NCBI RefSeq assembly: GCF_965363235.1
Contig: NC_134840.1
Coordinates: 59,576,793-59,640,792 of the forward strand
DNA from: Mytilus galloprovincialis
Lineage: Eukaryota > Mollusca > Bivalvia > Mytilida > Mytilidae
DNA length: 64,000 bases
Direction: 5' to 3'
Shown: in pieces, positions 875-62,592 of the stretch
How positions within the stretch are numbered: position 1 is the first letter of the stretch
How the letters are laid out: every line of letters begins with the position of its first letter
The notes under the pieces: generated by a model
Told to the model about the DNA's origin: nothing
The model's database searches: none
What the model saw: the letters and a program-made list of their open reading frames with translations, nothing else
Program-made: the position numbers and the translations under genes

Positions 875-1019
875 GTAGTGAAACTGTACTTAATAAGCAG
901 TGCATTGCCAGTATACTAGCCAGTGGATTTCTATGCTTATTTCCAAGACAGTGTAGAGGCCCTAGGAGAAAGCTGAAAGATATAAACTTTACCAATTTTT
1001 TCAAGTATCTTCCAGAATT
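875..1019 (+). CDS. PARG: PARG exon A (first in window), helical accessory part
   Basis: The acceptor is attttcag and the donor gtatgt. It enters with two bases of a split codon and leaves with two. The translation includes [16 protein letters not shown] and later DINFTNFF, matching the PARG segment just before the macrodomain (vertebrate QIACLLANAFFCTFP and DINFNRLF). I found no earlier PARG exon in 1-874, so the upstream coding sequence lies outside. Confidence 0.9.
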
Positions 1020-4000
1020 GTATGTTTTTCAAGTAGTAATTGTTACTTTTGATCTAAGTTCACAAGTATTTCATCTTCTTTATTTGTTGATGATGTTCTG
1101 AAGGAAAAAAGATAAGTACTGGGTTGATTGGCTATAGGTAGAATACAGACCTAATTAAAAAGACTGATATTACATGTTTCCATGATGCAATTATAAGCAA
1201 TATTGAGATAAAACTTGGCATTACCTATGTTAGTAGAATTTATTTTTTATACGCCCGTCTTTTAGATGGGACTTATGGTATACCGTTGTCCGTCCGTCCG
1301 TCATCCACACTTGGGACAATAACTCAAAAACACTTTCACCAATTTCCACGAAACTTAAGTGAATTGTTTATATCTATTGACGTAAGCTCCCTTTCGTTTT
1401 TTTTTAATTTCAGATTTTAAGTTTTGGATTTATGGGGCTTTATTCATATAAAAGGGGGGATTTTCAACACTTCGGACAATAACTCAAAAAGGCTTTCACC
1501 AATGTCCATGAAACTTTGGTGAATTGTTTATATCTATTGATGTAAGCTCCCTTTCAATTTTTATAAATTTCAGATGTTAAGTTGTGGATTAATGGGGCTT
1601 TATTCATAAAACTAGAGGCTCTAAAGAGCCTGTGTCGCTCACCTTGGTCTATGTGAATATTAAACAATGGACACAGATGGATTCATGACAAAATTGTGTT
1701 TTGGTGATGGTGATGTGTTTGTAGATCTTACTTTATTAAACATTCTTGCTGCTTATAATTATCTCTATCTATAACAGTACTTTCTGTGGAAAATGTTATT
1801 GAAAATCTTCAAATTTTAAGAAAATTGTTAAAAATTGACTATGAAGGGCAATAACTCCTTAGGGGGTCAATTGACTATTTTGCTCATACTGACTTATTTT
1901 TAGTTCTTACTTTGCTGTACATTATTGCTGTTCACAGTTTATCTCTATCTATAATAATATTCAAGATAATAACAAAAAAACAGCAAAATTTCCTCAAAAT
2001 TACCAATTCAGGGGCAGCAACCCAACAACCGATTATCCGATTCATCTGAAAATTCCAGGGCAGATAGATCGTGACCATTTTGGTCATGTTGACTTATTTG
2101 TAGTTCTTACTTTGCTGAACATTATTGCTGTTTACAGTTTATCTCTATCTATAATAATATTCAAGATAATACCCAAAACAGCAAAATTTCCTTAAAATTA
2201 CCATTTCAGGGGCAGCAACCCAACAACGGAATGTCCGATTCATCTGAAAATTTCAGGGCAGATAGATCTTGACCTGATGAACAATATTACCCCAGTCAGA
2301 TTTGCTCTAAATGCTTTGGTTTTTGAGTTATAAGCCAAAAACTGCATTTTACCCCTATGTTCTATTTTTAGCCATGGCGGCCATCTTGGTTGGTTTGGCG
2401 GGGCACCGAACACATTTTTAAAACTAGATACCCCAATGATGATTGTGGCCAAGTTTGGTTAAATTTGGCCCAGTAGTTTCAGAGGAGAAGATTTTTGTAA
2501 AAGTTAACGCAGGACGACGACGGACGACGACGACGGACGACGACGACGGACGACGACGACGGACGCCGGACGCCAAGTGATGAGAAAAGCTCACTTGGCC
2601 TTTCGGCCAGGTGAGCTAAAAAGGGGTATTTTTAACACTTCGGACAATAACTCAAAAAGGCTTTCACCAATGTCCATGAAACTTTGGTGAATTGTTTATA
2701 TCTATTGATGTAAGCTCCCTTTCAATTTTTATAAATTTCAGATTTTAAGTTTTGGATTTATGGGGCTTTATTCATAAAAAAAGGGGGATTTTTAACACTT
2801 CGGACAATAACTCAAAAAGGCTTTCACTAATGTCCATGAAACTTTGGTGAATTGTTTATATCTATTGATGTAACAAATAATACTTAATAAAATCTGATGA
2901 AAACATAAAATTTGTAAAATCTTTAGTTCAATTTAAAACATAAAATTTGTAAAATCTTTAGTTCAATTTAAAACATTAAATTTCTTGTAAAAAATAGGTT
3001 CCATGAATGTCATACGTTTGTACTATTATTGAATGGTTGCAAGGATGAAAGCACATTAGCAGTCCCTGAGATACTAACTGTTCCCTGAGGCATATATCAT
3101 TTTATGATAACATTTTTACTATCTAAGCTATGGATAAAAATCAAATACTGTTTTTTGCATATAGGATGATTTACTCTTGTTAAAATTGGTTGCAATTGAA
3201 ATCACAAATGATACCTTAGCATTGCAGCTTTTTTTATAGAGTTCGGTTTCGGTGGAAGGGTTGAGTGCAATAAAAAATGTTATAAAACATAACTAGTCTA
3301 CAATAGCACATAATAAGTGAACAAGTGACAACATGAAAATCCTAACATGTGACCAAATATTCCTTAAATGTTAAAGGGTGTCATTTTATGAAAAAAATAA
3401 GCAAATCAAGTCTCCTAAACATTTATCAATATGATCATCTTGTGAATATTCTAAACAATAAAAAGGTAATAAACATTATCCACCATATTAAGCACCATTT
3501 GAACAACTTTTGCATACATCTTTGTATAATTTAGTATGGATTCCTTACTGTGTTCAACAGAATCTAACTATGAGCAATATACCCCAAGAAAATTACCTTC
3601 TTTCAAACTACTATAAAATTTGGAAAGCAGCCATAGAATTACTAAAACCCATAATCATATATCACTTTCCTTATATTGCATTGAAGACTTCTATGTTATA
3701 TGCCAATGTTAATGATATTTGATTTTTATGCTAAATATTGAAAAGCTGAACTAGGTTTAATCATCAGTGTCTTCTTCACTGTAATCACTGTCCTCATTAT
3801 CAGAAAAATCCTCATTTTCATTCTCAGAAGAGGCCTCCTCATCATCAATGAAATCTTTATCTTCATCATCAATGAAATCCTTATTTTCATCACCTACTTC
3901 CTCATATAGATCATAACTTTCAGTAGAGTCACTTTCACCATCTTCACTTTCCCTGTTATCTTCTTGCTGCTCCTTATTGTCATTGTAGTCTTTTTTTGCC

Positions 4001-7000
4001 ATTTTTATACGCCCGTCGTCAATGAAATCCTTACTTTCATCACCTACTTCCTCATTTAGATCATAACTTTCAGTAGAGTCACTTTCACCATCTTCACTTT
4101 CCCTGTTAACTTCTTGCTGTTCCTCATTGTCATTGTAGTCTTTTTTGCCATTTTTATACACCCGTTGTCTTTCTAACAACGGGCGTATCATGGGCTAAAG
4201 CCCATCCCTTTATTTACAATGTATTGTTCACAAAAATAATTAAAAATGAAAGTTTTGATATTGTATTTTTAAGTCTTATAAGTTACTTTTAAATGCACTC
4301 TATTACATATACAATTTGCAAGGAGTTAATTACAAGAGTTTGAATGTGATATCACTTTCCTTATATTGCATTGAAGACTTCTATGTTATATGCCAATGTT
4401 AATGATATTTGATTTTTATGCTAAATATTGAAAAGCTGAACTAGGTTTAATCATCAGTGTCTTCTTCACTGTAATCACTGTCCTCATTATCAGAAAAATC
4501 CTCATTTTCATTCTCAGAAGAGGCCTCCTCATCATCAATGAAATCTTTATCTTCATCATCAATGAAATCCTTATTTTCATCACCTACTTCCTCATATAGA
4601 TCATAACTTTCAGTAGAGTCACTTTCACCATCTTCACTTTCCCTGTTATCTTCTTGCTGCTCCTTATTGTCATTGTAGTCTTTTTTTGCCATTTTTATAC
4701 GCCCGTCGTCAATGAAATCCTTACTTTCATCACCTACTTCCTCATTTAGATCATAACTTTCAGTAGAGTCACTTTCACCATCTTCACTTTCCCTGTTAAC
4801 TTCTTGCTGTTCCTCATTGTCATTGTAGTCTTTTTTGCCATTTTTATACACCCGTTGTCTTTCTAACAACGGGCGTATCATGGGCTAAAGCCCATCCCTT
4901 TATTTACAATGTATTGTTCACAAAAATAATTAAAAATGAAAGTTTTGATATTGTATTTTTAAGTCTTATAAGTTACTTTTAAATGCACTCTATTACATAT
5001 ACAATTTGCAAGGAGTTAATTACAAGAGTTTGAATGTGATTTGCCTTGCAATGGTAGTAAATGTATATGTATTCGATATTGTAAATTTTTATTTTCAGAT
5101 CATCCCAGCTAGCAAAGTTGAGATGTGTTTTGAATTACTTTGAGAAGGTAGCTGACAGGAGATTTGAAATTCAGGGCAGTGTTACATTTGTTAGACAGGT
5201 AAATAATTATTTCCATTTGTACATGAAGAGAACTTTGTATTTTCAGTATGTGATGATAATATCTTAAAAATGGTTTAATTACTACAATAATGTAATATGT
5301 TATAGTAGTTTTTCTTAAGCTAAAGAAATTTGATGATTTGTCAAACTTTGTAATGTTGTCATGTAATGCTCTGCTAAATAAGTTATACTTATGACTATCT
5401 TCGACAATTTTATCAAGGTAATTCCATGGGATGAGCTACCTTGTATGGACACATGGTTGAACTGTGATGTAGAGTTATGTCCCCTTATAGTTCATCAGGA
5501 TGGTGTTATAGAAGATGCTGGGTGTAGTGCAATAGAGGTGAGGACAATTTCATACAGTTTTAGATAAAACAATATTATAGAGATGAATTGAACTGATGTT
5601 ATATAAAAATGGTAAACAACAGTTCATGTAATTTTGAAGTATATTCAATATATTACCACCAAGAGAGATTCTTTCAAATTTGGTGTTGGTTCAAACAAGT
5701 CCACAAAATACATGTACTACATAGAAAACCAAATACAAACCCTGACAAAAAAAATAAACTGAGGATGAACTCAGGGGCTCTTAAAGCTCCCTTGTGCCAA
5801 ATGTATTACTAGTTGCTCTGATCTTGCAAGAATAAATCTGAAGTCTCATTCAGTGATGTCACAATGAAGGAAAAGAGGATGGGACTGTAGATTGGGGTCA
5901 TCTGTGGCATTGATTACAATCAACCACCTTCAACTTTAACTTTAATAATACCACTTGGAACTTTTAATTGAATAGCAGCAACCATTTATCAAAGAAATTA
6001 TGATAAATGGAATTTCATGAATATTGTATCAACTGTGAGATAGAAACTCCTTATGCATTCTTCATGAATTGTTTTTTTTCTTCTGTACAATAATATATTT
6101 TATTATGTGGCAGGTTGACTTTGCAAACCAGTATATTGGTGGAGGAGTATTATCTAAAGGCCGTGTACAGGTAAACCTATCTTTTAATTGTAGTGTTATA
6201 TTTTACAAACACTATTTCATATTATTAAAAGAGTAGCATGTGTTTAGTATGGACATCATTTTAATTGTAATAATATAACTCAATATGAAGACAGACAAGG
6301 TTCAAATCCATTACTGTTGCATGTAATAGAAACAATCTAGTTATGCATATAAAAGATAAGAGCAATTACTAAAGATATTGGACATTACAAGTTAATACAA
6401 CTGACCACACCAACCACTAATATCTGTCTCTTTAAAAAAAAAAATAGAGGAACAAGACAGTCAAGTATATATGCACAAACTATGGTGGTACTAAATTAGT
6501 TAAAAATGATCACTCAGACACTAGCTTTCACCATTGTCTACCTAGACCATAAGTCATAAAAGTTTAAAAGAAAATAAAAACACTAAAAATCTCCACAGTC
6601 AAGCTATAAATAGGATGACCCCTAACTTGAATATGGAAACAATGATGGCATATAGTTTAATAAGTAGAGTGTATGTTTGCTTTTCTTTTCAAGGTCTTTG
6701 ACATGAGTACCACCTTTAATCAATATTTCTATTATAAATTTTGCTTTTATGTGAACTGTTTGTAAAAGCAACAATTTTTATTCTGACAGAAAATGAAGAT
6801 ATTTTTAGTTTTTGCTAATTTGTAAAAATTTGTGAGCTTTAGTCATTTGTACTTTATAAGATATAGATAAGATATTTTTATTTTCCAAATTAAAGGGCCC
6901 ATTAAGAGCATAACATTAGTTACAACATGACATAAACATTACAGAGTGATTAAAGAAACATAAAATAATAATTCAAATGCATGAGGAAAGAATCAGTGGT

Positions 7001-10000
7001 CAAGGGGAGATAATTTTGATATCTTTTAGAGTATTTAAGTTAACTAATTTTCTGATTTTCTAAGTTGCAGGCCTTTATCAAGGTATGCACATAAAATAGA
7101 TAAAAATCTGCTATCTTCATTAATCATGATCCATGAAAAAAGATCTTTTCTGTTTGAATTATCTAAACTGAGGTATTTTTTGATATAATCAGTCACATCT
7201 CTTCTGAGGTTATTGTAAAGAGGGCATTCCAGAAGAAAGTGCATTTCATTTTCAATACAATTTGAATTACAATATAAACATAACTTCTCATGTCGAGGTA
7301 ATATTTCATATTTACCACATACATTGGTAATTCGTTCATGTCTGCCAGTTTCTATTCTTAAACAGTGATTGCTGAGTCTGTATTTTGTTAACAAATGTTT
7401 TTGTGGGTACTTTAAATCTAAATAATTTTCGTAGTCAAATGACCTTTCAAATGAAAAATAAGTCTCCAATTTGCCTTGATTCTGTAAATAAAAATCTCGC
7501 ATTTTCTCCCAATCATTTTGAAAATTTAATTTGAGCTGTTTTTCTCAGTAAATTTTTATTTAAATTTATTTTTGCCTAAATTTTTACATATATATTTAGG
7601 TCAATACCCAATTTTTCACTGTAGAAAATGATATTAGAGAGCCATGAATTATATGTACTTTATAGGAATATTTTTATTATACATTTTGTTTTTATGTGAA
7701 CTGTTTGTACATTTTAGGAAGAAATACGGTTTTCTGTTTGTCCTGAGTTGTTAACTTCAATGCTATTTATGGAAGTTATGGAGGACAATGAAGCCATTAT
7801 TTTACAAGGTTATGAACAGTTTTCAAGGACAAGTGGATATGCTAGTAGTTTAGAATATGAAGGAGATTTTACAGAGGCAACAATGGTAATTACTTGTTAA
7901 GTACTTGAATGCTTTATATACTGTTGTAAAATTTGTTTTTGTGGCTGACTGGAGAAAATCAGTTGATTTATAACATGTTAATTCAGTCATCACAACTATT
8001 TTGACACATGACAAATCAAAAGCATATATATACAGATTAATTTGATTTTTGTGGTTTTACAGAATCTCAACAGTATATGAACAATAGTGTGCCGCAGTTA
8101 TGATTATATTATATAATGATATGATATAAGTGATTTGAATTGCTTGGGAAATACATTATTAACATTTACTCATCCATGAAGTTCTGGAAGGTATTATATA
8201 GCAATTAATTAAGTCTGCTGCAGGGGTGACCACACCAGGCAAAGTGAGCGACTTTGTCGCTCTAGGTCTCCCCTCTTCGCTCTAAAGAAGCTCCAGGGAG
8301 AAGTTTATGTCGCCCTCGATTTTCAGTAAAATTCCCCAATGTCGCCTCTTGATTTTTGAGAAATTCTCGATCCAAAAGTAAGCGACTGATAAGTATTGAA
8401 ATTCAAAACATATTTTCCCCGAATTCAGAACCGATTTCTTCGCCATAGTATACTCCCACATAAAAATTGCTTGCCCAGGTGTACTATAAGCAATAAACAA
8501 GAAAAATCTCGATTTTGTTTTGTTTATTGTCCGCCATCCTTGTTATTGAAAATTGTAGATGGCGCCCTTTTATCTTTTCAACTTTCATCATTTACCTAAT
8601 CCATATTGATTTACACTATTAATTTTGATTTTCTTATATTTACTGACAAAATGTGATGCTCCATAAAAAATTTCAGATTTCTTTTCAAAAACGGAATATT
8701 ATCAACTGGTATCCACTTGTATTTTATTACGTTCAAAGTTTGTACACTGCCGGGAACCAGCACAATGATTATAAACTACAAAATACAGTCGGTTTTTATT
8801 TGTTCAGGATTTGGTTTTACAGACTGCTACATGTGCTTTGTTTCAGCTAAAGGTCCTTTAAATAGTATTTTAATGACTATTTGCTCATTAATTTGATAAG
8901 GAACGGCACTATTTACTTGCAAAGTCGTATTTTAGGAAAATATAAAGTACAAATTTTTTATGCAGATCGCACCATATTTGTTTTTGATTTACAAGTACCT
9001 ATTCAATTCTGGTTATGAAAAATAACTTTTACTATGTTTATTCTTTTTGTGATTTAGTCATATTGAAACACACTAGTGTTTTTAAATCAACGAAATACAT
9101 TTCCAACGGCAATTTGATTTTGGAAATGGGCATTTTCCGTGATAATACTGCAAACAATTGCAGATGATTTGAAATAACAGAGTTTTACTTTACGTTTTCA
9201 ACACATGACAAACAGTTTTCTTTCTGAATTCCTATTAAATATTATTTTAAGAACAAATATATTTTTTAATCTTAACCTTAGCAATGAAAGACAGTGAAAC
9301 CGTACTTTGACTTTTAATTGATTATTATTTTTGTTTTAAAAGGTTCTTGGACTTGGTTTAATTTTAAAATCTTTGAAATGCAGCATAATTTGATCCATGT
9401 CAAATCTTCAATTCATTCAGACTTACCAGAACAACCATAGCTCTTATGCCATTAACTTATGGTCCTTATGTCATGATATTTTTTGACAATTTGCATATGT
9501 ACACAAGTAAATAAAAAAAAAATTCAGACTACATGCATGGCAAGACAAGGACTCACTACCCTAGCAATTGTCAGGCAAAAATTATTAGAAAAATAACAAA
9601 AAGGTCTAGATTCTTAGAAAATTTTATTCTTAAAAAGTATAAATGCGATCTGTCGATTTTCCCAGAAGTCTCCCTGTTGGGTCTTCACTTCTCCCTGTTT
9701 GATTTGTACATGTACAGGACTGACTGCTCTGTGAACATAAATGAAAACCGCTAGCCATGATAAAAAGTCTGCTCAAATTTGGCTATAAAAGCTTTCAATT
9801 AATTGCATGACAGGTGGGTTTTTTTTTAGAACAAACAGTATTTTGTTTAGACTTTATGGTTATATTATTGTTCAGTAAAAAAAAAAACAGGAGTAAATAG
9901 TTTATTAATGACAATGACATAATAACATGTCTTTGTTACTAAAGTAGTTAAATAATTACAATGACTTTGTTACTACTGTAGTTAAATAATTACAATGACA

Positions 10001-13000
10001 TTGTTACTTTAGAAGTTAAATAATTACAATGACATTGTTACTATAGAAGTTCAATAATTACAATGACTTTGTTACATTAAAAGTTAAATAATGACAATGA
10101 ATTTTCTACTATAGTAATAACATAATTTCATTGACTTTCTTACTAAAGAAATTAAATAATTACAATGACAGTTACTATGGTTGATACCTAAATAATTTCA
10201 ATGACTATGTTGCTATAGAAAATAAGCAATTACAATGCCTATTGTTATAGTAGGTAATTACAATGACTTTGTTGTTAGTATATTTTCCAGCATTGAATGA
10301 TTGTTTTAACAGATTGCCATTTTGATTGTTTCTTATTTCAGGAATTTTATATGCAAAAGAACCAGACTGCCTTAAATTAATGAAGCATTCCTAAAAACAT
10401 GATAAATAATAGTGCAAATAAACATTGAATTGAATATGATGTATGCAATAATGCAAACCGCTCAATTTGTAACTGGAGACAATCCAAGTCATAAATACTG
10501 CTATGAAATATTCTGAACATCAACAAATAAGGGGACATTTGAAGTAGTAATAAATCTAGACCATTATCCCATTAAACAATTATATAAAGGTAACCAAAAA
10601 CACTATGAATTTTGGTTGCTAACATGTTTCTCTTGACATTGTCACATAATTGTTTATATCTACTGATTCTTTTTATACGACCGCAAAAATTTTAATTTTT
10701 CGTCGTATATTGCTATCACGTTGGCGTCGTCGTCTTGCGTCGTCGTCCGAATACTTTTAGTTTTCGCACTCTAACTTTAGTAAAAGTGAATAGAAATCTA
10801 TGAAATTTTAACACAAGGTTTATAACCACAAAAGGAAGGATGGGATTGATTTTGGGAGTTTTGGTCCCAAAATTTTAGGAATTAGGGGCCAAAAAGGGCC
10901 CAAATAAGCATTTTCTTGGTTTTCGCACTATAACTTTAGTTTGAGTAAATAGAAATCTATGAAATTTTGACACAAGGTTTATGACCACAAAAGAAAGGTT
11001 GGGATTGATTTTGGGAGTTTTAGTTCAAACAGTTTAGGAATTAGGGGCCAAAAAAGGGTCCAAATAAGCATTATTCTTGGTTTTCGCACAATAACTTTAG
11101 TATAAGTAAATAGAAATCAATGAAATTTAAACACAAGGTTTATGACCACAAAAGGAAGGTTGGGATTGATTTTGTGAGTTGAGGTCTGAACAGTTTAGGA
11201 ATTAGGGGCCAAAAAGGGGCCCAAGTAAGCATTATTCTTGGTTTTCGCACCATAACTTTAGTATAAGTAAATAGAAATCTTTGAAATTTAAACACAAGGT
11301 TTATGACCATAAAAGGAAGGTTGGGTTTGATTTTGGGAGTTTTGGTCCCAACAGGTTTTTAGGAATAAGGGGCCCAAAGGGTCCAAAATTGAACTTTGTT
11401 TGATTTCATCAAAAATTGAATAATTGGGGTTCTTTGATATGCCGGATCTAACTGTGTATGTAGATTCTTAATTTTTGGTCCCGTTTTCCAATTGGTCTAC
11501 ATTAAGGTCCAAAGGGTCCAAAATTAAACTTAGTTTGATTTTAACAAAAATTGAATCCTTGGGGTTCTTTGATATGCTGAATCTAAAAATGTACTTAGAT
11601 TTTTTATCATTGGCCCAGTTTTCAAGTTGGTCCAAATCGGGGTCCAAAATTAAACTTTGTTTGATTTCATCAAAAATTGAATAATTGGGGTTCTTTGATA
11701 TGCCAAATCTAACTGTGTATGTAGATTCTTAATTTTTAGTCCCGTTTTCAAATTGGTCTACATTAAATACCAAAGGGTCCAAAATTAAACTAAGTTTGAT
11801 TTTAATAAAAATTGAATTCTTTGGCTTTTTTGATATGCTGAATTTAATCATGTACTTAGATTTTTGATTATGGGCCCAGTTTTCAAGTTGGTTCAAATCA
11901 GGATCCAAAATTATTATATTAAGTATTGTGCAATAGCAAGAAATTTTCAATTGCACAGTATTCAGCAATAGCAAGAAATCTTCAATTGCACAGTATTGTG
12001 CAATAGCAAAAAATGTTCAATTGCACAGTATTGTGCAATAGCAAGAAATCTTCAATTGCACAGTATTGTGCAATAGCAAATATTTTCAATTGCACAGTAT
12101 TGGACAATAGCAAGAAATATCTAATTGCACAATATTGTGCAATAGCAAGAAATTTTCAATTGATTGGAGTTATCTTTCTTTGTCCAGAATAGTAGTTGAA
12201 TCAACTTAAATCATTGTTTTATACAATGCACAATGTATATTCACTTTTACTACCAACTGATAAATTAAAACACTCTTTACCATTCAGTGATAACAAGCAC
12301 TTTTTGTTACATTTTAATATTTTATGATGTATTTAAATGAGTAGTTATTGTTGCAAACTCCATTAGAAATTTGAATTGAGATCAGTTTTGAAAAAAGGGA
12401 AAGGGGGATGTGAAAAAAAAATGGTGGGGGGGGGGGTTAATTTTTCTCATTTCAGATTTCATAAATAAAAAGAAAATTTCTTCAAACATTTTTTTGAGAG
12501 GATTAATATTCAACAGCATAGTGATTGCTCAAAGACAAAAAAAATATTTTAAGTTCATTAGACCACATTCATTCTGTGTCCAAAACCTATGCTGTGTCAA
12601 CTATTTATTAAAATTACTCTTTATATTTATAGTATATACATGGCTCATGTAATTTAAAGAAGTGATTCTATTTTATTTTCAGGTGGATGAACATGGCAAT
12701 TTAATGACTACTTTATGTGCAATAGATGCTGTTAGATTTAGAAACAATGCTAAGTGTCAATACTCAGAACAGTATTATCTTAGAGACCTTAACAAGGCAT
12801 TTGTGGGATTCTCAGCTAAAGTAGATAGGGGAACAACTGTATATCCTTGTGAACAGTTGGCTAAGAGAATGTTATCACATGACCGATCAGAAAGTAGGAA
12901 GGAGTCAGCAAGTGAAGAGGAATACATGACAGCTGCTGAGGAGGAATTAGAACAACAGGATGAAACCAATACTGGCAATGGTAATAATAAAAGATGTGGC

Positions 13001-16000
13001 AAAAGAATATAGTATTTTTAGAATGCAATGTACAATGTACTTGTATGAGAAAAGTATATTTTGTTGGTTTGTTAAATTTTAGAATTTTATACAATATATT
13101 TGAGGATGAACTAGTTTAATAAATCTTTTTTTATTGCAATAATGAAAAGGTATAGGCAGTGAAAGATAAAAAGATAAAATGATAAAATGCACAAATGAAT
13201 CTTGATGAACTCTAAGAAAGTAAGCTGGTATATAAAAAAATATACATCTTCTGCCTACCATTTCAATTGAAGTGTATATAAACTTTCAGAATTTATGTCA
13301 AAGTGAGGAGATATGGTAAAATTAGCAATGGGACACTTATCCATTGAAGACTAAAAGGATTACAGCTTGAATAGTTTCACATCTCCAACCTATAGTTGTT
13401 TACAGTCTGATCCTAGTGTCTCTGGTGGTTAATTGTCTCTCTGGAAATCATGCTAGCCCCTCCATTACTTAAATATTCAACACAAGGCAGACCATGCAGT
13501 TGCTTTGTTAATATAGACAGGTTTTCATATAAATCTGATATAATTTTGTGATTTCTGTAAAATAAACATTGATAGTGGTTTCAATGCACCGTACTGGAAT
13601 ATATATGCCACTGAGCAAAAGTTCTATCCATTTGTGAAGTTAGCCCAAAACCATGACATTGGAGTAAAGTGAAATATCATGTGTAAATCTTTTCCTTTAT
13701 GTTTACTTGTATAACTTTAAATGTTATGATACAAAAAAATAGAGAGTATATTAATTATGGTATTAGGAAATTTAAGGGAGAAATACACTTAAGGAATTTA
13801 TTCTTAGATGTGATGTCTACAGCAATTTTGTACATCATTTTAATGTTGAATGTTAATGAAATGTATTTTAAAAAACAATAGAATATTTATGTTTCAGTTC
13901 CATCATCTTTGTTGAACTATGCAGATGGTTTATTGGTAGAAATAATGTCCTCTGCTTTGTTAGAAGCAGGTTCTGAAATGTCAGGGAAAGGCCAAACACA
14001 GCAAGTTCATATAGATACTAAATATTTAGAGGAATCATCATCATCAACTTTGACCAATGAAAAGCCACCACCAGACGATGGCATGGACCATTTAGATGTT
14101 GATTTAAAGGATTGGTACTTGCGTCTGAGACGTAGAAGTTCAAATCTAAGTGATGTAGGCTCTAGACGAAGTAGTTGTAGCACTAGATATAGTTCAGATT
14201 TCAGTTCAGAATTCGAAGAATATTACGAGAATTTTCAGAAACGTGAACAATTATTAGGGAAGCAACACACAATTAAAGAAGAAACATTTCATCCTTTAGT
14301 CGGAGAGTTTGCTGCAAGTTTAGTGTCGTCCATATTGTTTGAGGGTACAACTACTGCTGCCAATGTTTTACAGTCAATGTCCCCTATCATGACTGAATTT
14401 CATAACAATGCACCTTTATCTGTGATAAATAAACCTAAAGCAAGAAAACTTTCAGAAGAGGAATCTTCCGAGAACCCTGAAGAGGGTTCTCAAATTTCCA
14501 TGGTGGCAGCTAGAAAGTTTGCCCATGATTTTATGGATAGAATATTTTGTGATGACTTTTTCAGAGATGAAATAAGACAAGAATTTCATAATTTTTTTTC
14601 AGAATCAAACATTCCAGTATCAACTAGTCAAAATATTTCCAGTATTTCTGGTGCTAAGCATCAATCATGTACCGCTGACTTAGAACGAGAAGAAGCAGAA
14701 AGGCGCTGCCATGAAATGGCAACAAACATAGTGTATGATGTTATGAGTGAGGCAGTATTGAAATATTTAACTGAGGACGATGATAGATTTGACATGAATG
14801 AGGATGACACATTGAACAGATCAGTATCAGAATGTTCTTCATCTCCTTTTGATAGCTATTCCAACCATTCAGAATCTCCTAGTGTTAAACACTTTGGTGA
14901 TTCAGATTTTTTGCAACCCATAAGTAGTATTCATTTGTATGGAGATGAGTCTGTTGAATTGACAGATGATAATTCTGATTCTACTCTGGGTAGTATTCCA
15001 TTATTAACAGTTTCTGCAGATAAAGTTAGCAATAGCATTCTTGTGAAAAATAACATAGAAAGAGTTAAAAGTCCAACTATAGATATAAAAGGCAGGAGAA
15101 AGCACAATACTGATGGCTTTAGTAATAATCAAAGACCCGCTGAAGTCAAAATTGACCAGTATGTGGGCAAAAATCAAAGAAAAGTTAGCTTTTATGCAAG
15201 TTCTCTTTCGAGAGACCTTTTGACAACTGCTTTTGTAGAAGTTCAAAGAAACACAAACGGTGGAAGCTACATTAGACGTAGCAGTGAACCTCTGCAAATG
15301 TCAAATAAAGCAGCTAGACAGTTAAAAGATTCAATAAATGGTAGCGATGGACCAAAGAAAAAGATCAGTAGAACGGATGAAGATATTGCCATTTTAAAAG
15401 CAGAGATTTGTGAAGATGGTCGTAACTCTGTTGATTTCACCAGAAAGTATCGAAGAGAGTCATGTGGTTTCCATGATGAAACTTTATCTAAGTGAGTGAA
15501 TATACTTATATGAGAAATTGGTTATACTATTGAATCATGTAGTGATTTTTATATCTTATTTATAAGTTGATTAACAAATATGAGTGAACAAGCCTGCTGG
15601 TTCTTGATCCTGACTTGTTTAATTATAGGTCTAATGGAAATATGAATAGTTTGTCCCAAGTTTATTTAGGATTTGCAATTGATGTAAGGTTAAAGGACTT
15701 TTGTTTGAATGGAGGCCTATTTTTTTCTTCTTCTTTAAAATGATGAAGTGACTGCACTGTTTTGAACTGTTACTGCTTTCCACTTGAATGAACTTTTTTT
15801 TTAAATTGGAATTTGGAAAACTAATAAAATGATGTTTTTTATAAACAAAAAAGTTTCTTTCTGCTAAATTTTTATAATTTTTATTTTTTATATTTCATGA
15901 AAGTAGAATTAAATTTGACAGCTTTAAACTTATTGGAATTACTTATCTTGCAGATTTGCTGAGGAGCTAATGAAGACAGAATGTAAAATTCCAGAACTTT

Positions 16001-18147
16001 ACCTATTTGATTCTTCAAACAGAAGTACAAGTGGTTCATCTAGTCATTCATGGCGTAGCAGTATAAGTGGTTTTAAAGATGAGACTTTAGCCAAATTTGA
16101 AGAACAGCTACTCTTAGCTCGTAGACCAAAATCAAGGGGAAGTCTAAAAAGAAGGCGATCAGCAAAATCTTCTAAACATTCTAAAAGTAAATCATCAGAG
16201 AGACTTACTGAAAAAAGAGGTAGTAAAAGTTCATTGTACAGCCAACAAGGTCAATCAATAGGTAGTGAAACTTCATTGTATTCCTTATGTTCATCCACAC
16301 CAAGTCCACCCTTGGAAGAGTTATCTAACTTTGCTGAACAATTATCACATAATATAATTGCCGATAGTTTTAAGGTTATGTTTGGTGGAGCAGTGCCAAC
16401 TTGTCAAACTTCCACTTCTAATAAAAATTATAACGTTGACAGCTACGCTGAAAAAATTGCTGCTGAGATATTGTGCCAAGCTTTTTCTGATTTAAAAGAT
16501 AATAATGATTGGATACAAAGACATCAAATCCACGAGAAGGAAAGTGAGGTCCAAGGTGAAGATGACTCACATAGCCAATCAGATGAGTATGCTGATGCAT
16601 TAGATGTTCCATATAGACGACTAGAAGAATTTGCTGATGTACTGGCACTTAATGTATTACAGAGATCTATTAATGTATTTAGACGAGAAAAGGAAAGCAC
16701 AAAAAGGGTAAGTCTATGATAAGTGACATAAGTAAAACATCTGTAAAGCAGCAAATAAAACCAAAAACACCCATGTAAAGGTTAATTTACAGTCTTTAGT
16801 TAAATACAAACATACATATCAATATTGAGAAGACTTGCAATGTGCTCAGTGGTGTGAAAATATAAAAATACAATGACAATAGGTTAATGTGATAACGAAC
16901 TACAGACTTGATAATGGCATAAACTTTTATTCTTTTAACATGTTTATGTAGTCAATTCTGCATAGATTATACAGAAATTATAAAAAAAAACTGTCATCCA
17001 TTTATTAATAGTGAAATCACCTTTTTATACGCTGGTTTACGTGACATATTGTTGATATATATCAGATTGATACAGATTTGGTGTAGATGGGATTTTTTTT
17101 TTTCAATTTTTTTTTTTACGTCTTATATCATGTATATTGAAATCAACATTTGTTAGTTGAGAAACATGAAGCAACGACAAGAAGATCATGGCAACATTGG
17201 CAAGTAAAAGTAATATTGCTATTGATAGTATTATATAAAATAAAATATTCTGAAAATCCAGTGATTGACTAACAATATCTTATTAAAATACTAATAAACA
17301 GAAAAAGCCGACCTTGTGAATTTGTTTTGCAGAGAAATATTGGTAGACCTATTGCTACAGGTAATTGGGGTTGTGGAGCATTTGGTGGTGACCCTCAGTT
17401 GAAAGCTATGCTTCAGTGGATGGCTGCATCGTATGCTGGAGTACCATATGTCATGTATTATACCTTTCATCACGACAAACTCATCAAGGTATGTTGGGAT
17501 ATATTTAAATTTTGGGGATAATGATTTAGGATTCATTGATATGGAACTGCGTTGTGTAATCATAACTTCTTGAATTGCTATTTGAATGATGGTTATGATT
17601 GTAATTTATTTAATTGCAGTTAAAAAAATAAAAACTATTTAGTCCATTTCTTCATTCAAGTGGTGTGTGGAATTATTTTAAAAAGGTGTAGATGTTCGTT
17701 TGGCAGGGTTCATTTGACCTTGATTTCATTTTATGAATCAATATGATAATACATGTATAAAGTTTATGTGATACCTTTATCTTTTGCTCTTTCAACATAA
17801 ATTCAATCATAATCAGTAAAGGAGACAAGATATTTTAGCATGTGCAATCTTGTTAAAGTACTCTACATGATATGACATTAATGATAATACAAAACATTTG
17901 GGGTATTTATGTTCATTCAGCCTCTTTCTTCATATGCATTACAATTTTTGAATTCCTTTTGTAGTTACAAGAAACTGTTGATTCCATTTTATCAAGAGGA
18001 TGGACAGTTTGTAATCTGATGCAGGCTATTAGAAATTACTGTTTAACCACCTACGATATGATGGAACAGTCCAACACAGACCCACCAGATTTATTGAAAG
18101 CTTTGTTATTTCAGGACTTTTTTTCCAAAGATGTGTCATATAACTAA
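875..18147 (+). CDS. PARG: Poly(ADP-ribose) glycohydrolase, 3' ten exons (5' exons outside the window)
   Basis: PARG cleaves the ribose-ribose bonds of poly(ADP-ribose), reversing PARP signalling in nucleus and cytoplasm. Joined exons: 875-1019, 5099-5198, 5418-5537, 6114-6170, 7718-7885, 12683-12980, 13898-15491, 15954-16707, 17333-17488, 17965-18147. All junctions are GT-AG and phases close to one frame of 1190 codons plus TAA. Numbering from the first whole codon (877): helical accessory part 1-121, catalytic signature GGG (130-132) to QEE (140-142), LNKAFVGF near 232-239, then about 840 unusual residues, then [10 protein letters not shown] (1088-1097) and a C-terminal tail ending at 1190. 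The Glu pair matches the catalytic pair of vertebrate PARG. In vertebrate PARG only a short loop joins LNKAYCGF to [10 protein letters not shown], so the long insert is the odd feature. The first exon starts two bases into a codon, so the N-terminus lies upstream. Identity is firm; the expression of the full insert is inferred from phase and open frames. Confidence 0.95.
1611..2617 (+). mobile_element. Hairpin-ended non-autonomous element, GCTCAC family, copy 1 (complete)
   Basis: Starts actagaggctctaaagagcc (small hairpin), ends with the stem-loop cacttggcctttcggccagg inside agctcac...gtgagct, followed by AAAA. Inside are direct repeats of a gtagttcttactttgctgaa unit, the gccatggcggccatcttgg block and a (GACGAC)n tract at 2511-2570. 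It interrupts a tandem unit whose intact neighbours give the empty site. Architecture (core repeats, microsatellite, terminal stem-loop, A-rich target) fits bivalve pearl/Helentron-associated elements; that class is inference. Confidence 0.75.
2505..2575. repeat. (GACGACGGAC)n microsatellite
   Basis: Imperfect GAC/GGAC triplet repeat about 70 bp long, directly upstream of the terminal hairpin of the element at 1611-2617. The same position carries a triplet repeat in the other hairpin-ended families of this window. Confidence 0.9.
3757..4191 (-). pseudogene. Acidic 144-codon open frame, copy 1 (not recognised)
   Basis: Open frame rich in Asp, Glu, Ser and Asn, with an internal repeat: [20 protein letters not shown] and [20 protein letters not shown], each followed by SDSTESYDL and KDFIDD. 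Ends [12 protein letters not shown] then TAA. I do not recognise it. Its start lies in a palindrome-rich repeat end and it has no splice context that I can support, so it may be a captured gene fragment rather than a gene. Being antisense inside a PARG intron also argues for caution. Confidence 0.35.
4447..4881 (-). pseudogene. Acidic 144-codon open frame, copy 2 (identical)
   Basis: Same frame as 3757-4191, duplicated without change by the 690-bp tandem duplication. The identity shows the duplication is recent, or is an assembly effect; it says nothing by itself about function. Confidence 0.35.
5099..5198 (+). CDS. PARG: PARG exon B
   Basis: Flanked by ttttcag and gtaaat. It completes a Leu codon with exon A and encodes [12 protein letters not shown] followed by GSVTFVRQ, the PARG 'YF..V......G.VTF.RQ' segment. 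It leaves in phase 0. Confidence 0.93.
5418..5537 (+). CDS. PARG: PARG exon C
   Basis: Forty codons in phase 0, flanked by atcaag and gtgagg. Encodes [11 protein letters not shown] and later [13 protein letters not shown], the strand and turn leading into the macrodomain core; vertebrate PARG has a comparable 'G.IE..G' segment here. Confidence 0.93.
6114..6170 (+). CDS. PARG: PARG exon D: ADP-ribose-binding GGG of the signature
   Basis: Nineteen codons in phase 0, flanked by gtggcag and gtaaac, encoding [19 protein letters not shown]. This is the diphosphate-binding GGG and the run to the catalytic Gln-Glu-Glu. The intron falls between the Gln and the two Glu residues, so the signature is spliced together from exons D and E. 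Confidence 0.96.
7044..7550 (-). mobile_element. LINE remnant: C-terminal end of a non-LTR retrotransposon reverse transcriptase protein
   Basis: An open frame of 152 codons contains [18 protein letters not shown], then C-x2-C (LCLYCN), then [17 protein letters not shown]. The order 'R.s.h.l.ie.GR ... C..C ...E.HFl..CplY...R' is typical of the region after the RT domain in metazoan LINE proteins. No RT palm motif is present, so only the 3' part survives, antisense in the PARG intron between exons D and E. Confidence 0.7.
7718..7885 (+). CDS. PARG: PARG exon E: catalytic Glu pair
   Basis: Fifty-six codons in phase 0, flanked by attttag and gtaatt. Starts [12 protein letters not shown], where the two Glu are the catalytic pair, and continues through [18 protein letters not shown] and a TSGY motif. 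The vertebrate EQYS tyrosine is Phe here (EQFS). Confidence 0.95.
8225..8590. repeat. Less AT-rich block of unknown nature in PARG intron
   Basis: More GC than its surroundings, with the palindromic motif gagcgactttgtcgctc near 8247 and open frames on both strands (72 codons minus, 67 plus). Looks like a dispersed repeat rather than an exon; no splice signals fit PARG phase. Low certainty. Confidence 0.35.
9915..10280. repeat. 34-35-bp minisatellite, about ten copies
   Basis: Unit built on gttaaataattacaatgac followed by wttgttactwtagaa. Copies start at 9946, 9981, 10015, 10049 and 10083, then degrade to about 10275. Lies in the PARG intron before exon F. Confidence 0.85.
10670..12165. mobile_element. 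Hairpin-ended element, TACGACC family, copy 1
   Basis: Opens with tttttatacgaccgcaaaaa...gtcgtata (terminal hairpin read from its end), then gtcgtcgtc triplets, then four ~160-bp units with ttttcgcac at 10761, 10920, 11081 and 11242. Next come alternating ~120-bp units (ggttctttgatatgc) at 11380-11920 and a 35-bp array to 12165. A reversed copy with the same order of parts is at 51860-52967. Confidence 0.75.
11925..12165. repeat. 35-bp palindromic minisatellite
   Basis: About seven units of tattgtgcaatagcaagaaa plus ttcaattgcacag. Adjacent units create the inverted repeat ATTGCACAGTATTGTGCAAT at each junction, so a single strand of the array can fold into a row of small hairpins. Confidence 0.85.
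12683..12980 (+). CDS. PARG: PARG exon F: end of the macrodomain half, start of the insert
   Basis: Acceptor ttttcag, donor gtaata; 99 codons plus one base. The first 45 codons are macrodomain ([10 protein letters not shown] and [11 protein letters not shown]). The remaining 54 are acidic and disordered ([19 protein letters not shown]) and have no equivalent in vertebrate PARG. Reading through the donor would add only ten codons before a stop at 13010-13012, so intron retention would give a PARG truncated before the GNWGCGAF loop. Confidence 0.92.
13360..13460. repeat. Degenerate fragment of the mussel 'accacatcttctt' dispersed repeat
   Basis: Contains cctatagttgttta and a tctctggtggttaattgtctc stretch matching, with changes, the repeat at 33700-33812. 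Lies in the intron between PARG exons F and G. Confidence 0.4.
13898..15491 (+). CDS. PARG: PARG exon G: long insert with amphipathic-helix repeats and RRxS sites
   Basis: A 1594-bp exon, acceptor gtttcag, donor gtgagt, fully open. Hydrophobic helices stand out from Ser-rich sequence: [17 protein letters not shown] (13918-13968), [16 protein letters not shown] (14299-14346), [17 protein letters not shown] (14512-14562), [20 protein letters not shown] (14710-14769) and [19 protein letters not shown] (15187-15243). Between them lie RRRSS (14131-14145), SRRSS, IRRSS and RRES, matching the PKA R-R-x-S consensus. The helices share alternating hydrophobic pairs every 3-4 residues, as in RII-binding helices of A-kinase anchoring proteins. 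I do not recognise the exon as a named domain; the AKAP comparison is by pattern only. Confidence 0.88.
15954..16707 (+). CDS. PARG: PARG exon H: second insert exon with further helix repeats
   Basis: 251 codons after one base completing a Lys codon; acceptor cttgcag, donor gtaagt. Begins FAEELMKTE, continuing the helix started in exon G. Contains [19 protein letters not shown] (16069-16125), a near copy of the [14 protein letters not shown] made across the G-H junction. Then come a basic stretch [18 protein letters not shown] and three helices: [18 protein letters not shown] (16327-16380), [17 protein letters not shown] (16444-16494) and [17 protein letters not shown] (16630-16680). Confidence 0.88.
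17333..17488 (+). CDS. PARG: PARG exon [11 protein letters not shown] loop
   Basis: Fifty-two codons in phase 0, flanked by ttttgcag and gtatgt. Encodes [19 protein letters not shown], the second invariant PARG block, which covers the ADP-ribose, then [17 protein letters not shown]. The macrodomain fold resumes here after the insert. Confidence 0.96.
17965..18147 (+). CDS. PARG: PARG exon J: C-terminus and stop
   Basis: Acceptor ttttgtag; sixty codons and TAA at 18145-18147. Encodes a helical C-terminal tail ([19 protein letters not shown]) comparable in place to the vertebrate 'MHIFLTERKLTVGDVYKLLLRYY' region. The protein ends FFSKDVSYN. Confidence 0.92.
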   Translation, partial: LQETVDSILSRGWTVCNLMQAIRNYCLTTYDMMEQSNTDPPDLLKALLFQDFFSKDVSYN

Positions 18148-61967: not shown

Positions 61968-62592
61968 CGGTACCACGATTTCCCGAGAAATACGAGAAAA
62001 ACGTAATATCCCGAAAACAAGATGATATATCCCAAGAAAAAGATTTTCTATGGTGTTATGTTACTTTTTATAGTGGTTTACTACTTTTGACAATATGAAA
62101 GAATACTACTTATCGATATTACTCGTTTTTATTCAATAAAAATGCAATTTCAGCTTTGTTAAACATCATTCGATTAACTACGTCTCTTCGAGCATTGTAT
62201 ATTTCGGGAGTCAGTCGGACGCGAAATCTAGACCGCTGCAAAACGGACATGAATACAATTGCAACTCCCCTCGAAAGGCTAGCTCCATTAAAAGTATTTA
62301 AGTCCTTTTCGAAAGCAGTCTCATCAAATTGTAAATTACTGCAATCGTTTGAGCCAATTTGACATATGACAACATGAGGCGCGTAATGTACAAATAGGAC
62401 TGATTCAATTTCAGTAATCAACCTTTTGATAGTAGCTCCCGGATAGCCATAAACCTTAGTCGTTGTATGCTGTTACATTAATTGAAGCAAAAAAACACCT
62501 TGAACACCAATAAAAATCTTTTTCTCGGGATATATCATCTTGTTTTCGGGATATTACCTTTTTCTCGTATTTCTCGGGAAATCGTGGTATCC
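61968..62592. mobile_element. Mutator-like element with 9-bp duplication, carrying a gene fragment
   Basis: TIRs of about 80 bp: left ggtaccacgatttcccgaga, right end tctcgggaaatcgtggtatc. AGAGACAAG flanks both sides (61959-61967, 62593-62601). The arms contain repeated atatcccgaa/gatatatccc motifs. The centre is a minus-strand hydrolase-like frame, not a transposase. Confidence 0.82.
62119..62465 (-). pseudogene. SGNH/GDSL-hydrolase-like fragment captured in the element
   Basis: Frame reads VYGYPGATIKRLI, then HYAPHVVICQIGSNDCSNL and later YNARRDVVNRMM. 'G.pGat...l...PdvvilqiGsND' is the first half of SGNH hydrolase domains (block III contains G-x-N-D). The catalytic Ser block and the last Asp-x-x-His block are not visible, so it is a partial copy. 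Confidence 0.55.

Follow-up and report, generated by a model that had tools for sequence, protein, structure and literature searches.

We analysed a 64,000-nucleotide window of the Mytilus galloprovincialis genome (NC_134840.1, positions 59,576,793 to 59,640,792), whose plus strand carries a gene for a poly(ADP-ribose) glycohydrolase (PARG) with a very long insert in its catalytic domain. The 5' end of the gene lies upstream of the window start, as does the first part of the helical domain, and its stop codon is at 18145-18147. Exons C to J (n=8, 5418-18147) were reconstructed from splice sites and reading frame; they add up to 3330 nucleotides in a single open frame, with GT-AG borders at all 7 introns between them. 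Two further exons, B0 (875..1019), a part of the helical domain, and B (5099..5198), its end, were located by tblastn with residues 121-168 and 171-203 (82% identity for the latter) of a relative, P0002, and their borders were set from the sequence. Together they match P0002 residues 121-203, in or edging its PARG_cat_N domain (84-201, E 6e-23). The macrodomain starts in exon C (5418..5537), which was placed by frame and splice sites and is 97.6% identical to P0002 residues 202-243. Exon D (6114..6170) carries the first portion of the catalytic signature GGG-X7-QEE, while exon E (7718..7885) opens with the EE of that signature and holds the macrodomain core (PARG_cat_C 51-105, E 2.3e-18). The end of the macrodomain N-half (PARG_cat_C 106-156), with LNKAFVGF reaching 12811, lies in exon F (12683..12980) together with the first 56 whole codons of the insert, which continues through exons G (13898..15491, 530 whole codons) and H (15954..16707, 251 whole codons). 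Exon I (17333..17488) has a few insert-end residues followed by the macrodomain C-half (PARG_cat_C 161-205, matched by this exon alone at E 3.3e-19), and exon J (17965..18147) supplies the stop codon and a C-terminal tail that has homologous counterparts in SPHKAP and AKAP4.

A preliminary description of this DNA had proposed that about 840 residues split the PARG catalytic domain, and this is borne out by the rebuilt exons: the insert measures 847 residues, from the F of LNKAFVGF to the T of TGNWGCG, and PARG_cat_C matches the protein in two stretches. The whole-codon counts given there from position 12818, namely 54 for exon F, 530 for G and 251 for H, are exact; split codons come in addition, and all lie in one open frame. 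The assignment of exons F to H to the insert stands as regards the single frame, but exons G and H are not the exact insert, since it starts in F and ends in I. AG acceptors and GT donors flank exons F, G, H and I. A partial protein from the same species (P0001) shows 95% identity across most of the insert and C-terminus, with the same junctions. P0002 is a 1300-residue frame with the insert on a contig of 6487 nucleotides, presumably a spliced transcript given that the window exons are spread over more than 17 kb. Other insert-bearing relatives likewise have one frame on contigs of about transcript length (P0011, 4385 nucleotides; P0016, 5985; P0018, 4649; P0165, 4423), the transcript status of these 'lgn' contigs being judged from their length.

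Against the whole spliced protein, the PARG_cat_C profile gave E 2.3e-73 and 246.6 bits (curated cut-off 26.3), the better stretch aligning residues 11-163 with profile positions 2-155. The mussel protein contains GGG-X(6-8)-QEE, which we take to be the PARG catalytic signature, followed by TGNWGCG and YYTFH, all aligned with canonical PARGs of a fish, a butterfly and a wasp; the signature spacing is the same in these three canonical rows. Sequence matches in the PDB were all PARGs. Apart from PARG_cat_C, the Pfam matches of the whole spliced protein were limited to two below the cut-off, SmAKAP (E 0.033) and RBD-FIP (E 0.15); RII_binding_1 had no match, and an NCBIfam scan gave no useful match. 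The protein family thus shares with PARG (PF20811 and PF05028) the helical domain, found in relatives, the macrodomain and a signature of the GGG-X7-QEE type, and differs in the insert. In the canonical PARGs compared a short loop joins the two blocks, as the preliminary description had said of vertebrate PARG, in which it placed the loop next to the active site: the gap at the insert site is 14 residues in a fish (P0037), 16 in an insect (P0039), 14 in a wasp (P0040) and 41 in P0038, and in two solved PARGs with alignments only 10 residues correspond to the stretch between about 158 and 1004 of the mussel protein. In the predicted structure of an urchin relative, the macrodomain halves form one PARG fold that matches the structures of human and mouse PARG best, and the insert is mostly low-confidence helix and coil. 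From this relative's model and the PARG_cat_C matches, the mussel halves look able to fold together. The notion of a scaffold domain built into an enzyme loop therefore holds in that a scaffold-like segment lies in a macrodomain loop, but a single folded domain finds no support in the urchin model.

Forty proteins were listed at E<=1e-3 when the insert and C-terminus served as the query, and most of them bear the insert. At least five (P0036-P0040) can match through the PARG C-half only, and these five are PARGs without this insert. One of them, P0036 (930 residues), has both ADP-ribosyl-glycohydrolase (PF03747) and PARG domains in a precomputed list and is a possible two-enzyme fusion. A further search added echinoderms, Lingula, amphioxus and a cricket. 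The table on which the counts below are based has 40 rows, namely the mussel and 39 relatives. P0001, which starts after GGG..QEE, and P0036 and P0038, which have no insert of this kind, were left out, as were P0007, P0019, P0022, P0025, P0027, P0028, P0030 and P0033, in which the junction, signature or C-half is missing from the model or was missed by the pattern; P0023 was retained despite the broken-model N-part. Insert lengths range from 344 (Anabrus) to 1542 residues (amphioxus). Protostomes, echinoderms and amphioxus all include bearers of the insert, and across these bilaterians it sits at a single site; the architecture is therefore not recent. A conserved insert block (14128..14238, plus strand, A1 consensus) has a 17-letter part in common with insect and shrimp inserts (hhalign 44.1 versus at most 18.5 in 60 shuffles), which argues for a single origin of the insert.

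GGG and QEE are both intact in 32 of the 40 rows, comprising the molluscs other than a broken Lottia model, a nemertean, Lingula, 6 of 8 echinoderm rows and amphioxus. The eight exceptions are that Lottia model, two starfish (GGS, GRG), three Lepidoptera, Penaeus and Anabrus. In 32 rows GGG-X7-QEE is kept together with TGNWGCG (SGNWGCG in one Haliotis). A tree was built from both macrodomain halves of 29 rows, leaving the insert aside. It had four canonical PARGs and no outgroup, so that its root is not fixed, and P0036 was omitted from it for want of a junction match. The four canonical PARGs fall on one side of a branch with support 94/90. This fits two kinds of PARG.

Near the start of the insert, EYMTAAE (12920..12940, plus strand) forms a phospho-FFAT-like motif (FFAT, two phenylalanines in an acidic tract). 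It is a putative VAP-binding site and lies in the same place as DFLTASE of SPHKAP. The motif starts 19-46 residues past NKAxxGF in 32 of the 40 rows, with variants such as EYFTASE in Pinctada, DFETASE in urchins and DFHTAFG in amphioxus. When the opening 60 residues of each insert are taken, 32 rows have the broad pattern (shuffled mean 1.27, maximum 6) compared to 32 of 542 other insert windows, and 23 rows have the strict pattern (shuffled mean 0.11, maximum 2) compared to 1 of 542; no FFAT pattern was found in these 60 residues in Mya, Dreissena, Lingula and five arthropods. Passages of PMC10460453 and PMC12696101 report that mutation of F212 or T214 in the SPHKAP motif abolished VAP co-localization and that a DFLTASE mutant lost its localization to the endoplasmic reticulum (ER). 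For AKAP220 (AKAP11), an N-terminal FFAT-like DFVTA-E and two FFAT-like motifs are described in part of PMC3261905. The amphioxus proteins P0173 and P0178 have a second, near-canonical FFAT (EYFDAVE/EYFDAME) downstream of DFHTAFG, which recalls that pair (PMC3261905).

Further along the insert, amphipathic helices resembling those of A-kinase anchoring proteins (AKAPs), of the form FAxxLAxxILxxAF, match our pattern seven times on the plus strand (13918..13959, 14308..14349, 14716..14757, 15193..15234, 16330..16371, 16444..16485 and 16630..16671, the last directly ahead of the C-half), against a shuffled mean of 0.11. Matches number 8-9 in amphioxus and 3-8 in molluscs, above their shuffles. 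Altogether 31 of the 40 rows beat all 200 of their own shuffles, and 4 rows have one or two matches, a number reached by some shuffles. Gorilla SPHKAP has three. As the pattern was derived from the mussel and SPHKAP helices, these counts measure recurrence and not binding of protein kinase A (PKA).

The relation to SPHKAP extends over both halves of the macrodomain. The family C-half aligns with SPHKAP at hhalign P 1.8e-18 and with AKAP4 at P 8.7e-15, and blastp of single mollusc sequences against SPHKAP sequences reached E 3.6e-15 (7-protein set). None of the scanned insert-bearing rows reached the 25-bit cut-off of the AKAP_110 family (PF05716), the sub-cut-off scores being E 0.25 for mussel exon I (profile 608-630), 5.9e-4 for Lingula, 0.0042 for an urchin and 0.0099 for a shrimp. 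In profile alignment the SPHKAP N-terminus (about residues 30-250) is colinear with the macrodomain N-half, the NKAxxGF helix (EINKFLIGLE in SPHKAP) and the FFAT motif. With 17 family rows the score was 49.9, compared to at most 22.1 for non-overlapping SPHKAP windows, 20.1 for the reversed sequence and at most 22.0 in 60 shuffles; with 30 rows it was 51.5 versus at most 21.7 in 200 shuffles. The signal comes largely from the junction (47.0 versus 17.8 in 60 shuffles). By hmmsearch at E<=1e-3, a profile of the N-half and junction from the 30-row family found 120 of 120 SPHKAP rows, these being the listed part of 373 matches and closely related to one another; the macrodomain N-half alone found 64 of the 120, and both profiles found none in reversed sequences. 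SPHKAP also shares the C-terminal tail and helices of the FA/YAxxLAxx type. It differs in having no PARG_cat_N match, neither GGG..QEE nor TGNWGCG, and a longer, divergent scaffold. An article available to us in part (PMC11377751) reports that the C-half of these AKAPs, including AKAP11, AKAP3 and AKAP4, is homologous to PARG and calls the N-terminal portion of PARG lost; in that part the word 'invertebrate' was not found. On the alignments above, the N-part of SPHKAP appears to be decayed rather than lost. In one SPHKAP model, P0041 from Acipenser sinensis, the stretch opening the C-terminal domain is repeated three times in tandem, likely a duplication in the gene model or assembly.

We consider it probable that the mussel protein belongs to an ancient second kind of PARG, tethered to the ER and anchoring PKA, which persisted in vertebrates as a scaffold without the active site, with binding and catalysis being assigned by homology. 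The preliminary description had suggested that degradation of poly(ADP-ribose) (PAR) may be tied to another pathway, and homology with SPHKAP allows this pathway to be named as cAMP/PKA anchoring together with VAP/ER tethering. A long flexible scaffold interrupts the PARG catalytic domain (helical part and macrodomain) at the NKAxxGF / ATGNWGCG loop, and in the proposed arrangement the macrodomain ends would clamp the base of this tether. By homology, the FFAT motif near this base would, once phosphorylated, attach the protein to VAP at the ER, and several amphipathic helices would load PKA regulatory subunits, after which the chain would return to complete a macrodomain that binds or trims PAR nearby. 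Since GGG..QEE is intact in most of the rows, the protein probably removes or binds PAR at the ER contacts at which PKA would be anchored. In vertebrates, the helical domain and catalytic loops would have been lost, and both macrodomain ends, the FFAT motif and the anchoring helices kept, giving SPHKAP; AKAP11, AKAP3 and AKAP4 would have been derived in the same way, going by the published C-half homology. Arthropods would have lost the catalytic signature separately. The direction, from an intact invertebrate form to later vertebrate decay, is suggested by the wide spread of the intact form, amphioxus included, and by the loss of the catalytic motifs in SPHKAP and arthropods.

It is scarcely credible that exons G and H are instead another gene or a retained element that is spliced around to give an ordinary mussel PARG. 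These two exons carry most of the insert and the case for them was made from the genomic sequence of this gene, but skipping both shifts the frame, as exon F ends in phase 1 and exon I begins in phase 0, and neither the contigs of the relatives nor the single insertion site and the block in common with insects and shrimp agree with such a reading. Given the frame, the insert-bearing relatives and the P0001 junctions, the split domain is no product of chance or of a mis-joined gene, and a separate gene or artefact as the source of exons G and H was rejected. We find it quite improbable that the insert is a disordered expansion with no PKA or VAP function, that it resembles AKAPs through convergent amphipathic helices and that the protein has nothing but its C-terminal domain in common with SPHKAP. 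Several observations that weigh against the reading preferred here would suit such an explanation. The helix pattern was drawn up with the mussel and SPHKAP helices already known, and it is absent from all 5 arthropod rows and from gorilla AKAP4, whose RII-binding helix (PF10522) falls outside it. The likeness between the inserts and SPHKAP is of low probability (18%, score 42.2 versus at most 24.0 in 30 shuffles); hhalign with the SPHKAP middle gives mainly helix-repeat matches, and this likeness could come from convergent helices. Without the NKA helix and FFAT, the SPHKAP macrodomain signal is modest (29.9 versus at most 28.3 in 60 shuffles). On the other side, the FFAT junction and the colinear N-half tie SPHKAP to the family beyond the C-half, and the helix matches recur above shuffles in amphioxus and mollusc rows.

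Other points on the same side of the scale concern the descent of the AKAPs. A profile of four canonical PARGs misses the SPHKAP N-terminus (14.0, a score reached by 25 of 60 shuffles). The AKAP4 N-half is colinear but marginal (hhalign 24.3 versus at most 21.2 in 200 shuffles), and hmmsearch found it in 0 of 79 rows at E<=0.05; no protein named AKAP11 is among the best 120 of 400 search matches. The SPHKAP structure model has a mean predicted local distance difference test score of 38.7, and VIA-align of this model gave no PARG or macrodomain among the 50 rows listed; its residues 61-186 have an order of strands and helices resembling the macrodomain N-half, yet we do not count so poor a model as support. 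With the root drawn at the midpoint, the canonical PARGs become nested next to Holothuria and urchins (86/86, 88/89), and the tree alone therefore does not make the insert-bearing PARGs one clade. Rather unlikely, in our assessment, is a pseudoenzyme, in which the insert blocks catalysis and the protein only binds ADP-ribose chains, acting as a PAR-reading PKA scaffold. Such a role would suit the loss of the signature in four insects and a shrimp, its alteration in two starfish and its loss in SPHKAP, and PAR binding has been suggested for the human C-halves in a portion of the 2024 paper (PMC11377751). The joint retention of GGG-X7-QEE and TGNWGCG in 32 of 40 rows, however, suggests selection on catalysis.

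The remainder of the window holds a few features outside the coding exons. A 145-residue frame is present twice on the minus strand (3726-4194 and 4416-4884), 690 bases apart and with identical translation, each copy containing the same 150-base tandem repeat; this is either a recent duplication or a doubling in the assembly. Inside the intron between exons D and E, a 166-codon minus-strand frame (7044-7544) has a weak, unrelated Pfam match only (E 0.08) and presumably resembles the end of a LINE-type retroelement. The intron between E and F is largely made up of tandem arrays at 9913-12162 (periods 34, 161, 135 and 35). A minus-strand open frame at 62119-62472 has weak likeness to GDSL/SGNH lipases (PF13472, E 1.2e-4, under cut-off).

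Within the open-access literature searched, we found no prior description of the split architecture. It offers an origin for a medically studied family of scaffolds, one member of which, AKAP11, is called a high-confidence risk gene for bipolar disorder in a passage of PMC13303681. It also calls into question, for SPHKAP, the published statement that the N-terminal part of PARG was lost. More tentatively, and short of calling it probable, we suggest that AKAP11, SPHKAP, AKAP3 and AKAP4 are decayed PARGs. The bilaterian ancestor would have had an active, ER-tethered PAR hydrolase carrying PKA inside its catalytic domain, which would survive in molluscs, echinoderms and amphioxus, while in vertebrates the two ends of the protein would continue to build a macrodomain, now without catalysis, that encloses the PKA scaffold and may still sense ADP-ribose. 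The resulting prediction is that in each of these AKAPs the N-terminus and the C-terminus come together as a single macrodomain, which would allow truncating variants and those at the N-terminus to be interpreted. Mussels and the other bearers of the intact form would then be present-day animals that may combine PAR degradation and PKA anchoring in a single molecule.
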